Below the pieces are notes generated by a model. That model did no database searches, was not told where the DNA came from, and saw only the letters and a list, made by a program, of their open reading frames with translations. Shown here piece after piece: positions 46,147-60,500 of a stretch of 64,000 nt of DNA. Numbering within the stretch: position 1 is the stretch's first letter; each line of letters opens with the position of its first letter. Location of the stretch: positions 2,976,001-3,040,000 of the forward strand of contig NZ_VFME01000001.1 of the NCBI RefSeq assembly GCF_006714895.1. Reading direction: 5' to 3'. The stretch comes from Gramella sp. Hel_I_59 (lineage in GTDB: Bacteria > Bacteroidota > Bacteroidia > Flavobacteriales > Flavobacteriaceae). The position numbers and the translations under genes are program-made.

Positions 46147-46869
46147 TTAGTCCTGTACTTTAAAAGCAATTGGAAGGGAGTACATAACACCTACCGGTTT
46201 TCCTCGCTGCTTACCAGGCTTCATTTTAGGAAGACTGTTAATTACTCTAGCAGCTTCTTTCTCAAGTCTAGGGTGTGGAGCACGAGCTCTAACCTGACCA
46301 ATATTACCTTTTTCGTCAATTCTAAACTGAACGATCACACGGTTAATACCAGAAAGTCCTAACTCAGAACCAAGATCTGTATCGAACTCCTTGTTCACAT
46401 ACTTACTGATCTTTTCACTCATACAAGCTTTACGCTCGTTATTGTTTTTTAGATTTTCACATCCCGGGAAGATCGGCACATCTTCAATAACCGCGAATGG
46501 TACATCTGCTACCTCTTCTTCTTCAACAGCCTCAACAACTTCTTCTACTTCCACGATCTCATCAAGGTTGGTCTCTGTAGACTGGATCTCATCCTCTTCT
46601 ACTTCTTCCTCATCTTCTACAACCTCGATAACTTCCGGTGCTGGTGGTGGAGGTGGAGGTGGTGGAGGTGTGTTCAACATCTCCGTAATTGGCACATCCT
46701 CTTCATCAAGTTCGTCCATATTCAATTGACCGATGTCAACAGCTTCAGGATCATATGTCTTCCATTCTATTGCCCGCCAGGTTATTAGCAAAACAAGAAT
46801 AAGACCTAACTGCAAATAAAGAGTTCGGTTTCTATTTAAATCAGCTTTTGGATTTTTCTTAGGTTCCAT
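46147..46869 (-). CDS. Energy transducer TonB (second of a tandem pair)
   Basis: A 240-residue inner-membrane-anchored TonB. Order: basic cytoplasmic start KKNPKADLNRNR, one helix (YLQLGLILVLLITWRAIEW), a Pro stretch of nine residues, a long Glu/Val-rich spacer, the flavobacterial Cys-pair block VPIFPGCENLKNNNERKAC, and the TonB_C domain ending MYSLPIAFKVQD. It should couple the proton-motive force from ExbB/ExbD to outer-membrane receptors. It is a close paralog of the next gene upstream, 111 bases away, a gap holding only a partial -7-like tract (TATTTTAG). Confidence 0.94.
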   Translation of the reverse strand: MEPKKNPKADLNRNRTLYLQLGLILVLLITWRAIEWKTYDPEAVDIGQLNMDELDEEDVPITEMLNTPPPPPPPPPAPEVIEVVEDEEEVEEDEIQSTETNLDEIVEVEEVVEAVEEEEVADVPFAVIEDVPIFPGCENLKNNNERKACMSEKISKYVNKEFDTDLGSELGLSGINRVIVQFRIDEKGNIGQVRARAPHPRLEKEAARVINSLPKMKPGKQRGKPVGVMYSLPIAFKVQD

Positions 46870-46980: not shown

Positions 46981-47697
46981 CTATTGAACTTTAAACCGAA
47001 TCGGGATGGCATAAGAGACCGGCACTGCCTTTCCTCTTTGCTTTCCAGGTTTCATTCTAGGCAGTTTCGAGATCACCCGTTTAGCCTCTTCTTCAAGCTT
47101 GGGATGAGGAGCTCGTGCCTGCACCTGTTCGATTTCACCCTGAGTATTTACTACGAACAAAACGGTCACCAGGTTCATTCCCGTTAGCCCTAGTTTCTCT
47201 CCGAGTCTGGTATCGAATTCTTTTCCAACGAACCTGCTAATTTTCTCACTCATACAGCTCTTCCTGTCTGCATTATTGTCCAGATCCTCACAACCTGGAA
47301 ATAATGGAACATCTTCAATAAATTTAAATGGGACCGTTTCAACAACTTCATCAGGCTCTGCGTCAATAATATCTTCAGGTTCCACAATATCATCCAGATT
47401 GATCTCAGTGGGAGCTATTTCATCTTCCTCTACATCTGCATCGTCTGGAGCAATTTTAATTTCCGGAGGCTCTACTGGCGGCGGCGGAGGTGGCGGTGTT
47501 TGATCATAAACGGTTACAGGAACTTCCTCCTGGGGTAGATCATCCAGGTTCAGCACATCTTTGCCTGCCTGAGCAGGATCATAAGTTTTCCATTGAAATG
47601 CCTGTAGCGTGAAGAATAAGGTTACAATAAGTCCAATTTGAAGAAACAGGACCCAGTTCCGACGAAGATCGGCTTTCGGATTTTTTTTCGGTTTCAT
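46981..47697 (-). CDS. Energy transducer TonB (first of a tandem pair)
   Basis: A 238-residue TonB with the same layout as its neighbour: KKNPKADLRRNW start, helix (VLFLQIGLIVTLFFTLQAF), short Pro stretch, acidic spacer, Cys-pair block VPLFPGCEDLDNNADRKSC and TonB_C domain ending SYAIPIRFKVQ. The two copies are strongly similar in the N-terminus and C-terminal domain but differ in the spacer, as expected after tandem duplication. It lies 25 bases after the VanZ gene and is probably transcribed from the gcvH promoter. Neither tonB gene has exbB or exbD nearby. Confidence 0.94.
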   Translation of the reverse strand: MKPKKNPKADLRRNWVLFLQIGLIVTLFFTLQAFQWKTYDPAQAGKDVLNLDDLPQEEVPVTVYDQTPPPPPPPVEPPEIKIAPDDADVEEDEIAPTEINLDDIVEPEDIIDAEPDEVVETVPFKFIEDVPLFPGCEDLDNNADRKSCMSEKISRFVGKEFDTRLGEKLGLTGMNLVTVLFVVNTQGEIEQVQARAPHPKLEEEAKRVISKLPRMKPGKQRGKAVPVSYAIPIRFKVQ

Positions 47698-56381: not shown

Positions 56382-58676
56382 TTAAGCTTTTTTCTTAGCC
56401 TTCTTTTCTTTCTCCTGTGCATCTATAACCGCTACTGCAGCCATGTTCACCATTTCCTCTACACTTGCACCAAGCTGAAGAATATGAACAGGTTTCCTCA
56501 TTCCCATCATGATCGGGCCTATAGAGTCTACATTGTTAAGTTCTTTGATAAGCTTATAGGTGCTGTTAGCTGAATCCAGATCTGGATAGATCAGTGTATT
56601 CACCTTCTTACCGGCAAGTTTTGAAAACGGGAATTTATTCTGAAGCATCTCGCGATTTAAAGCGAAATCTGCCTGCAGTTCTCCATCAACACTTAGTTCC
56701 GGATGAAACCTGTGCAGGTAAGAAACTGCTTCTTTTACCTTGGTCGCTCTTGGATGTTTAGAAGATCCGAAGTTAGCGTAAGACACCATCGCGATCACAG
56801 GTTCCATACCAAATAACTGAACCGTACGAGCCGTCATTTGCGCGATCTTGGCAAGATCTTTAGCTGAAGGATCTATATTAATAGAAGTGTCACTAATAAA
56901 TAATGGACCTCTGGAGGTATTCATCACATTGGTAGCTGCTACTCTGGAAACGCCATCTGCTAACCCAATAAGTTCCAGCATAGGTTTTACCACCGTTGGG
57001 TAAGCTCTGGAATAACCTGAAAGTAATGCATCTGCATCTCCTTCATTGACCATCATCGCGGCAAAATAGTTACGTTCTCTTAGTAGTTTTTCGGCATCGT
57101 ATTTAGTTACGCCACTTCTATGCCTGGTTTCCCAATATTTGTAGGCGTATTTTTTTCTGTTTTCCTCTTCATCATCAGATTTTGGATCTATGATAACCAC
57201 ATCCTCTTCCTGAAAATCGATCTCAGCCATTAATTCCTTGATCACTTCACTTCGTCCAAGCAGGATTGGGAACCCAATTCCTTCATCATTAATGATCTGT
57301 GCAGCTTTAAGAACATCAAGATGGTCTGCTTCAGCAAAAACGATTCGTTTAGGGTTTGTTTTAGCGCGGTTTTGTAACAAACGGGTGATCTTGTTCTCAT
57401 TACCCATACGTTCCAGCAACTCTTCCTCGTAACGTTGCCAGTCATCGATCCCTTCCCGGGCGACCCCACTTTCCATCGCAGCTTTGGCAACTGCAGGCGG
57501 AACTTTGGCGATCAATCTCGGGTCGAAAGGCTTCGGAATAATATAATCAGGTCCAAAATTTAACCTCGTTTCACCGTATGCAATATTTACCTGCTCTGGC
57601 ACTGCTTCTTTAGCTAATTCTGCCAATGCCTTTACTGCAGCTTTTTTCATTTCTTCATTGATCTTCGTAGCTCGTACATCCAGTGCACCACGGAAGATAA
57701 ACGGGAAACCAAGAACATTGTTCACCTGGTTTGGGTGATCACTTCTACCTGTCGCCATGATGATATCTTTCCTGGTATCCATCGCCAGGTTGTAATCGAT
57801 CTCTGGATTAGGATTGGCCATTGCAAAAACGATAGGTCTTTTTGCCATGCTCTTAAGCATTGCCGGACTTACGATATTTGCGATAGAAAGACCCACGAAA
57901 ACATCGGCATCCTTCATGGCTTCACCCAAGGTGTCGATCTTACGGGCAGTAGCGAATTCCGCTTTTTCTTCAGAAAGATTTGTTCTGTCTTTTCTAATGA
58001 CACCTTTACTATCAAGCATCACGATATTTTCAGCTTTAGCACCAAAAGCTTTGTAAAGCTTGGTACAGGAAACAGCAGCAGCTCCTGCACCACTGATGAC
58101 GATCTTTACTTTGCTGATCTTTTTCTTAGCCAGTTCCAAGGCATTCAGCAATGCTGCTGCTGAAATGATCGCAGTTCCATGCTGATCATCATGCATCACC
58201 GGAATATCCAGTTCTGCTTTTAAGCGTTGTTCAATTTCAAATGCTTCAGGAGCTTTGATATCTTCCAGGTTGATTCCGCCGAAAGTTGGCGCAATATTCT
58301 TAACCGTTTCTATGAACTTATCTACGTCTTTAGTGTCTACTTCAATATCGAAAACATCAATATCTGCAAAGATCTTAAAGAGAAGACCTTTTCCTTCCAT
58401 CACCGGCTTGGATGCTTCGGGACCAATATCGCCAAGACCCAGAACGGCAGTACCATTGGAAATAACTGCTACCAGGTTTCCTTTGGTGGTATACTTGTAA
58501 ACATTCTCCCTATCCTTTTCAATCTCTAGACATGGTTCAGCTACACCTGGAGAATAAGCCAGAGACAGGTCTCTTTGGGTGGCATATTTCTTAGTTGGTA
58601 CAACTTCAATTTTCCCGGGCTTAGGTTTAGCGTGGTAAACCAATGCCTCTCTTCTTTTTCTGGAAGTGTTACTCAT
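56382..58676 (-). CDS. maeB: NADP-dependent malic enzyme with phosphotransacetylase-like domain
   Basis: Oxidative decarboxylation of malate to pyruvate, making NADPH. From the ATG at 58676 the protein is 764 residues. The N-terminal malic-enzyme domain (1 to about 425) has [13 protein letters not shown], the metal/substrate block [12 protein letters not shown], the nucleotide motif [12 protein letters not shown] and [10 protein letters not shown]. The C-terminal domain (about 430-755) resembles phosphotransacetylase and in MaeB proteins is regulatory, binding acetyl-CoA. A reading starting at 58703 is possible but less likely. A -7-like TAACTTTG (58708-58701, minus strand) lies upstream. It has its own terminator. 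Confidence 0.96.
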
Positions 58677-58799
58677 AATTTTAAGTTTTCGGCTAATTAG
58701 CAAAGTTAATAAGGCTGCTGTCCTTAGAGAAATAAAAAGAACAAAAGCTTCAAACGTATCTCTAAGATAATTTATACTTTGGAGGCCTAAATTATTTTC

Positions 58800-59574
58800 A
58801 TGATCAAAAGTCTGTTTTTAGCACTTTTCCTTGTGCCTGTGCATATATATATATGCACAAACTCTATCCATAAACGAGGTAGACAGTCCACCACTAATAA
58901 AGGGATACTGCGAAGAAGACCCTTCCGAAGAATGTTTTACCATTTCTATAAGTCAGTTTATGAATAGCAATGCGAAAATTGCTGATATCATCAAATCGAA
59001 AGAATCCGGAAAGGCGTATATCCAGTTTACTGTAAGTGAAAAAGGAGAAGTCATTAATGTACGATCACGATCTAAATTCCCCACGATCGCCCGAGTAGCG
59101 GAAGACGCTATAAAGGAATTGAAGATCGCTGAGCCGGCAATGTTAAACGAACAACCCGTAGCGATCACTTATACCCTGCCGTTTAAATTCAGAAGCCTCG
59201 AATTAGGGAATAATAGCGCCAGGATTTCAGGCGACGGAGATTTTGCAAACATAACCGATGTGAATGAAGTAGCAACTCCTCCTGAGTTTCGAGGCTACGA
59301 GACAGGAATTAGAAATATAGTTGACCGTTATAAATATGACCTTAGAATGAAGCTAAGGCAAATGAGTTATGATGACAAACAAATTGATCTACTGAAGATT
59401 TCATTGATCATTGAAGAGAATGGGGAAATCTCCAGAAAACTGGTAATTCATCCCAAGCGAAAACTTCAGAATATTGTAAAGACTGAAGTAGATAGGATCG
59501 TGATCGAGCAAGCAGCTAAAAACAAGAATGGAGAAAATGAAAAAGTGCTAATTTCTTATGACTTCTCAAACTAG
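58800..59574 (+). CDS. Periplasmic TonB_C-domain protein with apparent frameshift in an AT repeat
   Basis: The ATG at 58800 opens a typical signal peptide ([17 protein letters not shown]), but this frame stops at 58967 after 55 codons. The mature protein continues in the next frame from about 58855 ([14 protein letters not shown]) to the stop at 59574. One more AT unit in the (AT)6 tract at 58843-58854 would join the frames exactly. The body holds a Cys-pair block ([11 protein letters not shown]), a TonB_C-like domain (about residues 50-120) and a second, weaker one near the C-terminus; there is no membrane spacer, so it is not a classical TonB. The only same-frame start (TTG at 58831) would lack an export signal. 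Sequencing error, a slipping repeat or a broken gene are all possible. Confidence 0.65.
58838..58859. repeat. (AT)6 tract inside a 22-nt perfect palindrome
   Basis: Six AT units (58843-58854) are flanked by TGTGC and GCACA, making a perfect palindrome of 22 bases. It falls within the signal-peptide codons of the TonB_C-domain gene. Such dinucleotide runs are prone to slippage. Confidence 0.9.
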
Positions 59575-60500
59575 TCAGGCTTTAGAAATTCAATATTTCG
59601 CTTAAGACCTTCAAATTTTGTTCGTTTCACGGCAGATTTTCTGAAGATCTCGTTGAAAGTTTCCCTGGTGACCTCTTCCCAGTCTTTTCTTGAGTTCTCC
59701 AGAAGTTCAGGATGCGGATTGAATAGTGGTTCCTGGTGAGGTTTGGAAAATCTATTCCACGGGCAAACGTCCTGACAAACATCGCAGCCAAACATCCAGT
59801 CATCAAACTGATTCTTCATACTCTGCGGTAGCTCATCTTTCAGTTCAATGGTGAAATAAGAAATACACTTACTGCCATCTACCTTGTAAGGTTCTACGAT
59901 CGCTTCCGTAGGACAGGCATCGATACAGGCGGTACAGCTTCCGCAGTGATCGGTTACCGGAGTATCGTATTCCAGGTCCAGATCCACGATTAATTCAGCG
60001 ATAAAATAGAAAGAACCTGTTTGTTTAGATAACAAATTGGAATGTTTACCAATCCAACCGAGTCCGCTTTTTGCAGCCCAGGCTTTGTCCAGAACCGGAC
60101 CTGAATCTACAAATGCACGACCGTGAAAATCCCCAATTTGGGCCTTTAGCGTAACGAGCATTTCCTTCAATTTATCCTTGATCACAAAATGATAATCCCT
60201 ACCGTAAGCATATTTACTGATCTTGTAGGACTCGCTGTTTTGTATTTCTGAAGGATAATAGTTCAGCAGTAGAGAAATAACGCTTTTTGAACCCGGAACT
60301 AGCAAGGTAGGATCCAGACGCTTATCGAAATAATTCTCCATATAGCGCATTTCCCCATGCATATTATTCTGAAGCCAGCTTTCCAGTCTTGGCGCTTCCT
60401 CTTCCAGAAATTCAGCTTTTGAAATTCCGCATGACAAAAAGCCGAGGCGTTTTGCTTCGGCTTTAATAAGTTGTGAATATTTTGCTGCTGAAGGATTCAA
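59571..60500 (-). CDS. queG: Epoxyqueuosine reductase
   Basis: Last step of queuosine synthesis in tRNA: reduces epoxyqueuosine using cobalamin and two 4Fe-4S clusters. The 309-residue protein has both ferredoxin-type motifs, [15 protein letters not shown] and [11 protein letters not shown], and the family start [17 protein letters not shown]. Length matches short-form QueG proteins. Its stop codon overlaps that of the convergent TonB_C gene by two bases (ctag). A terminator-like hairpin (60438-60464) lies within its first 21 codons. It follows the His-rich lipoprotein gene by 44 bases. Confidence 0.96.
60438..60464 (-). terminator. Terminator-like hairpin in the 5' coding part of queG
   Basis: An 8-bp perfect stem (60438-60445 with 60457-60464) extended by a GC pair inside, with an A-rich loop, is followed on the minus strand by TTTTTGTC. 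It lies 36 bases inside queG and could act as an attenuator or end the upstream lipoprotein message. Confidence 0.5.

Follow-up and report, generated by a model that had tools for sequence, protein, structure and literature searches.

Gene layout and the encoded protein

The window, which is the whole stretch of 64,000 nucleotides analysed here, corresponds to positions 2976001–3040000 of a single-contig 3.44-Mb genome with an estimated completeness of 99.94%. Between the genes for a malic enzyme and the epoxyqueuosine reductase QueG, a short open reading frame (ORF) for a predicted signal peptide is followed by a sequence for a TonB_C-domain protein, and the frames of the two differ at an AT tract (Table 1). 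The signal-peptide ORF is opened by ATG 58800 and closed by the stop codon at 58965–58967. The mature frame is +1 relative to the signal-peptide frame, is open only from 58822, and ends with the stop codon at 59572–59574. In this frame, TTG 58831 is the first start listed and the first ATG lies at 58960, just upstream of the stop of the signal-peptide ORF; the database record of the window's protein (P0003, 204 aa) begins only at this ATG. ORF reading thus bore out an earlier note on this DNA, which had described a signal peptide starting at ATG 58800 out of frame with its TonB_C protein.

Table 1. Features of the locus (positions in the window)
Feature	Position	Strand	Basis
Malic enzyme with phosphotransacetylase-type domain (neighbour)	56382..58703	-	ORF list, Pfam, synteny
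Signal-peptide ORF, 55 codons	58800..58967	+	ORF list; same ATG and signal peptide in G012, G022, G014, and P0001
Perfect 22-nt palindrome enclosing (AT)6	58838..58859	.	Palindrome search and folding
(AT)6 tract at frame break	58843..58854	+	Repeat search
Mature part, 238 codons and stop	58858..59574	+	ORF list, TonB_C domain match at residues 46–112
First ATG of mature frame, start of P0003 (204 aa, protein database)	58960..59574	+	ORF list, database record
Epoxyqueuosine reductase QueG (neighbour)	59571..60500	-	ORF list, Pfam, synteny

The tract comprises exactly 12 bases, preceded by C and followed by G. It is unique within the window, none of 100 dinucleotide-preserving shuffles contained such a tract, and the 3.44-Mb genome holds two (AT)6 tracts in total, this one included. 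As the earlier note had also claimed, the tract forms the core of a 22-nt palindrome, a perfect one that exceeds every other zero-loop palindrome of the window in length. An arm of at least 11 was reached in 3 of 100 simulations of the window under a first-order Markov model, so the palindrome alone is unusual and not extreme.

The TonB_C domain (PF03544) scored above the Pfam curated cut-off (32.9 vs. 24.6 bits). A protein database search with the window protein returned three matches, one of which was the protein itself, and a profile built from nine sequences returned 13 database matches, of which eight besides the window's own are 256–269 aa long (P0001, P0002, and P0004–P0009). The family is small, and all names shown are from Christiangramia; the named carriers of the gene are Christiangramia portivictoriae, an uncultured Christiangramia MAG, and Christiangramia sp. 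LLG6405-1. The relatives are named energy transducer TonB in the database, and the protein has the TonB_C domain in common with that system. Energy transducer TonB proper has a long proline-rich linker from its N-terminal anchor to the domain. In contrast, this protein has a short predicted signal peptide and then about 45 residues with three prolines ahead of the domain match, so that the long proline-rich linker is absent; in P0001, the domain match starts at residue 64 and residues 19–63 contain three prolines.

An internal similarity was observed between window positions 59260–59307 and residues 23–38 of P0002 (7/16 residues, E 0.009), which hints that the protein may be a tandem of two related domains, with Pfam recognising only the first. 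Elsewhere in the window, two adjacent TonB_C-type homologues, only weakly similar, lie on the minus strand at 46153–46440 and 46990–47319, within open frames of 248 and 240 codons.

Orthologues and presence across the genus

Orthologues were searched for in 24 genomes of the genus Christiangramia. A strong homologue (E 2.3e-26 or better) was present in 8 of the 24 genomes, the window's own counted, and the other 16 gave only weaker TonB_C-type matches. All seven orthologues, when read as DNA, formed a single open frame with its own signal peptide. In the three closest (G012, G022, and G014), a 259-codon open frame, counted from stop to stop, uses the same ATG as the window, the signal peptide ends in FAQ or VAQ, and the sequence is 4 bases shorter than the window at the tract position. 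The four more distant orthologues (G018, G021, G016, and G002) are all intact as well. The identity of the mature protein to that of the window is 95% for G012, 93% for G022, and 87% for G014. The closest relative by protein is P0001 from Christiangramia sp. LLG6405-1, the representative of a cluster with 32 member sequences, which was compared as protein; it is 97% identical (7 differences over 238 mature residues), and its signal peptide is intact. The maximum AT run over the 120 bases preceding the mature part is 12 bases for the window and 3–6 bases for the seven orthologues, none of which carries the (AT)6 tract.

Since the relatives have a single frame with the same start and no tract, the signal peptide and its start are real, and the intact frame of the relatives further indicates that the break is specific either to the lineage of the window or to its assembly. 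On sequence comparison, the predicted signal peptide belongs to the TonB_C gene, and the claim that the two form one gene was confirmed by their in-frame joining in the relatives. A mis-set start, which the earlier note had considered, was ruled out: alignment of the N-terminus showed that the ATG and signal peptide are common to the relatives.

The malic enzyme gene and queG were adjoining or nearly so in all 21 loci fetched (one per genome), and the gene lay between them in 7 of these, or in 8 of 22 counting the window; the count excludes G019 (73% complete) and G020 (67%), in which the anchor stretch was unmatched. Because the gene was not found at this slot in 14 of the 22 genomes (tblastn, E 1e-3), it is accessory. 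In three of the 14 genomes, the slot is filled by an ORF pair (L053:2209–3295, L055:2097–3177, and L059:2017–3106) that, judged by eye, looks like an ECF sigma factor together with its partner in the membrane. This position between queG and the malic enzyme gene is a possible exchange site.

Selection on the mature part and origin of the tract

Pairwise dN/dS of the mature part was 0.069–0.095 (six pairs, four genomes), and no stops were present. For comparison, the values were 0.006–0.025 for the malic enzyme, which is under stricter constraint, and 0.053–0.074 for queG, which is similar. Lineage-only changes (synonymous/non-synonymous) numbered 9/6 in the window, 12/2 in G012, and 16/9 in G022, numbers too small to reveal relaxed selection. 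Conservation in the 34 codons upstream of ATG 58960 matched that of the rest, with 6 of 102 bases differing from G012 and 3 of 102 from G022. An old pseudogene was ruled out by this dN/dS range and the lack of stops. As the mature part is without decay, the break is recent, is an assembly error, or is not fatal to translation.

An error of sequencing or assembly in the tract length, with the gene intact in the living strain, would be consistent with a conserved, stop-free mature part in a gene that is otherwise complete and syntenic. However, the difference between window and relatives at the site includes base substitutions and is not one of length alone, so the AT-rich site is real and only its length could be wrong; the origin of the sequence in a single-contig, nearly complete genome also argues against an error, which we consider unlikely.

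Protein might also be obtained by recoding, that is, by slippage of the ribosome or RNA polymerase on the AT repeat or by a ribosome restart at ATG 58960. The repeat would permit re-pairing after a slip, the ATG lies just before the signal-peptide ORF stop, and the conservation of the mature part includes the 34 codons before this ATG. However, no orthologue has the repeat, which means that no recoding signal is conserved; none of the known signals was recognised either, and a restart at ATG 58960 would yield an unexported protein. Recoding is thus highly improbable, and ribosomal frameshifting at the palindrome or tract, as suggested in the earlier note, gained no positive evidence.

The derived allele in the window is a perfect inverted repeat of 22 nt, and the site in G012 is already an imperfect inverted repeat, with a six-pair stem containing one imperfect pair. 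The folding energy of the window segment as single-stranded DNA was −7.4 kcal/mol (z −4.83), and that of the orthologues at this site was −2.7 (G012), −0.6 (G022), and −0.8 kcal/mol (G014). According to PMC7202029, template switching makes inverted repeats more perfect at quasipalindromes, and the E. coli lacZ reporters for it are built with a 4-bp frameshift at an 18-bp quasipalindrome. The window has a perfect inverted repeat and a 4-base frame-shifting change in common with such mutations (E. coli thyA hotspot and lacZ reporters). Single events were enumerated from the sequences of the relatives, and the edit distance to the window was scored. An inverted copy and a tandem duplication shortened the distance equally from G012 (10 to 8) and from G022 (8 to 6), whereas from the more distant G014 the inverted copy reached 9 from 14 and the tandem duplication only 13. 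Unlike in the known quasipalindrome mutations, the inverted copy is thus better here only for G014, and the tie for G012 and G022 led us to reject template switching as a proven origin.

Other AT tracts and the switch question

In simple-sequence-repeat contingency loci, such as those of translational phase variation in Campylobacter, a short repeat lies in the 5' part of the ORF and its unit number sets the frame, as (AT)6 could do here. The accessible part of PMC6321876 gives a phase-variation cut-off of at least six dinucleotide units, and its authors caution there that tracts close to their cut-offs may mutate too rarely to switch. The (AT)6 in the signal-peptide region is a non-triplet repeat inside an ORF and is only just at that six-unit cut-off. 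In contrast to contingency loci, the tract has the minimum length and occurs in one genome among those compared, with mutS and mutL present; its retention in orthologues, which is usual though not strictly required for contingency loci, was 0/7. Both repair genes (open frames of 872 codons for mutS and 617 for mutL) scored over their family cut-offs. The family-profile check of the two genes revealed no mismatch-repair defect, and such a defect was rejected.

The two (AT)6 tracts of the genome both lie at frame breaks. The other tract (L037:1501–1512; G000:C1:2313314–2313325) is located where a DUF3644-domain gene shifts frame: DUF3644 profile positions 2–76 match before the tract and 91–178 after it in a different frame, and each of three homologues has one continuous frame (333, 333, and 418 codons). 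A third frame change at an (AT)6 tract (L071:1501–1512; G008:C1:55070–55081) was observed in a membrane protein gene of G008 that is glycosyltransferase-like by eye. Three homologues with single frames of 489–523 codons match one frame up to approximately the tract and another beyond it; with the third of these (L086), the matched stretches overlap by about 100 bases and the frame change is less sharply placed. A fourth, weak match (L087) is left out of this comparison.

Two further observations were made at these loci. The L037 locus contains repeated elements of 36–122 nt (356–512, 1034–1164, and 2163–2318) between small ORFs, with ends like GCACAACAACGG...CCGTTGTGC, which we presume to resemble integron attC-type or other cassette spacers. 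In G010, an (AT)6 tract (L072:1501–1512; G010:C18:561162–561173) falls within the opening codons of an ORF, SusD-lipoprotein-like by eye, beside a SusC-like gene.

Across the genus, three of ten (AT)6 tracts are at frame breaks by homology (the window locus L038, L037, and L071), three are within ORFs that show no sign of a break, and four are outside or at the edge of listed ORFs. A stricter rule of ORF geometry called one junction among the ten (L037) and placed L071 in-frame, a looser rule called two (L037 and L071), and L038 fell into neither class under both. In the family, (AT)7 is present in 77 of 397 genomes. Thirty family loci with longer AT tracts, which lie mostly outside ORFs, were classified by the stricter rule as 25 neither, 5 in-frame, and 0 junction, and by the looser rule as 25 neither, 4 in-frame, and 1 junction (L114). 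A family-wide AT contingency system is therefore unsupported by the 30 loci from the 397-genome search. The control 12-mer ATATTATAATAT occurred at 31 places in 15 of the 24 genomes. Among the 15 places classified, 12 were in-frame, 2 were neither, and 1 was a flagged junction (L128) that we read as two adjacent genes; frame breaks thus numbered 0 among 15 by ORF geometry only, and the comparison is uneven in that the genus breaks were called by homology and the control and family loci by ORF geometry alone.

Slipped-strand phase variation, as proposed in the earlier note, would mean that the length of the AT tract toggles the exported protein and that the protein was switched off in the cells sequenced. 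The position of the tract in the 5' part of a gene for an exported protein, its six units at the published cut-off, the conserved mature part, and the frame breaks at the genome's two (AT)6 tracts and at one in G008 are consistent with a switch. However, the tract is absent from all seven orthologues, its 12 bases are the minimum at which, in the accessible part of PMC6321876, mutability may be too low, mutS and mutL are present, and the longer family tracts, most of them outside ORFs, provided no junction under the stricter rule and only L114 under the looser one. Phase variation at this gene is thus doubtful, and as a conserved tract it is not supported, although the second frame-breaking (AT)6 in the genome leaves a small probability for a switch. 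The literature search found no paper combining Christiangramia with phase variation and, among the matches listed (abstract starts), nothing on AT-tract switching in Flavobacteriaceae.

The genus pattern could reflect a real contingency habit, or AT tracts could simply be where frameshifts occur. It is rather improbable that Christiangramia uses rare short AT tracts in genes as low-rate frame switches, born species by species and not inherited; new tracts would then be formed at places where an AT palindrome is created by slippage or a template switch. This reading draws on the genes for the exported TonB_C-like protein, the DUF3644 protein, and the glycosyltransferase-like membrane protein of G008.

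A recent accidental frameshift is most likely, ahead of an evolved on/off switch. With a probability of roughly 0.57, we propose that an accessory Christiangramia gene, encoding a small and putatively secreted protein that contains a TonB C-terminal-like domain, is present at the locus as a frameshift allele that is young and specific to this lineage. A sequence error or a recent pseudogene had been offered as an alternative in the earlier note, and orthologue comparison favours that side of its argument. The intact relatives, the lack of the AT repeat in all of the orthologues, the shared slot, the failure to find the gene at this slot in 14 of 22 genomes, the lack of stops, and the presence of mutS and mutL were counted in favour of a recent frameshift. 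Two points count against it: purifying selection on the mature part is also expected of a still-expressed protein, and isolated accidents would not predict that both (AT)6 tracts of the genome lie at frame breaks.

The local replication error behind the recent frameshift would have been slippage on the AT repeat, a duplication, or a template switch that made an inverted copy and completed the imperfect inverted repeat, and it would have happened recently enough that the mature part is undecayed. The products in the cell would then not go beyond a short fragment of signal peptide and, perhaps, a 204-aa protein that starts at ATG 58960 and is not exported; the loss would be tolerated because the gene is dispensable.

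As a frameshift allele, the locus is ordinary, and the frameshift explains why P0003 lacks the signal peptide that is present in its relatives. In the accessible part of a 2025 review, switching in this phylum involves invertases and invertible promoters, and the terms 'dinucleotide' and 'flavobact' were not found in that part (PMC11868660). If the three frame-breaking AT tracts of the genus proved variable, they would represent a slippage-based switch in this phylum.
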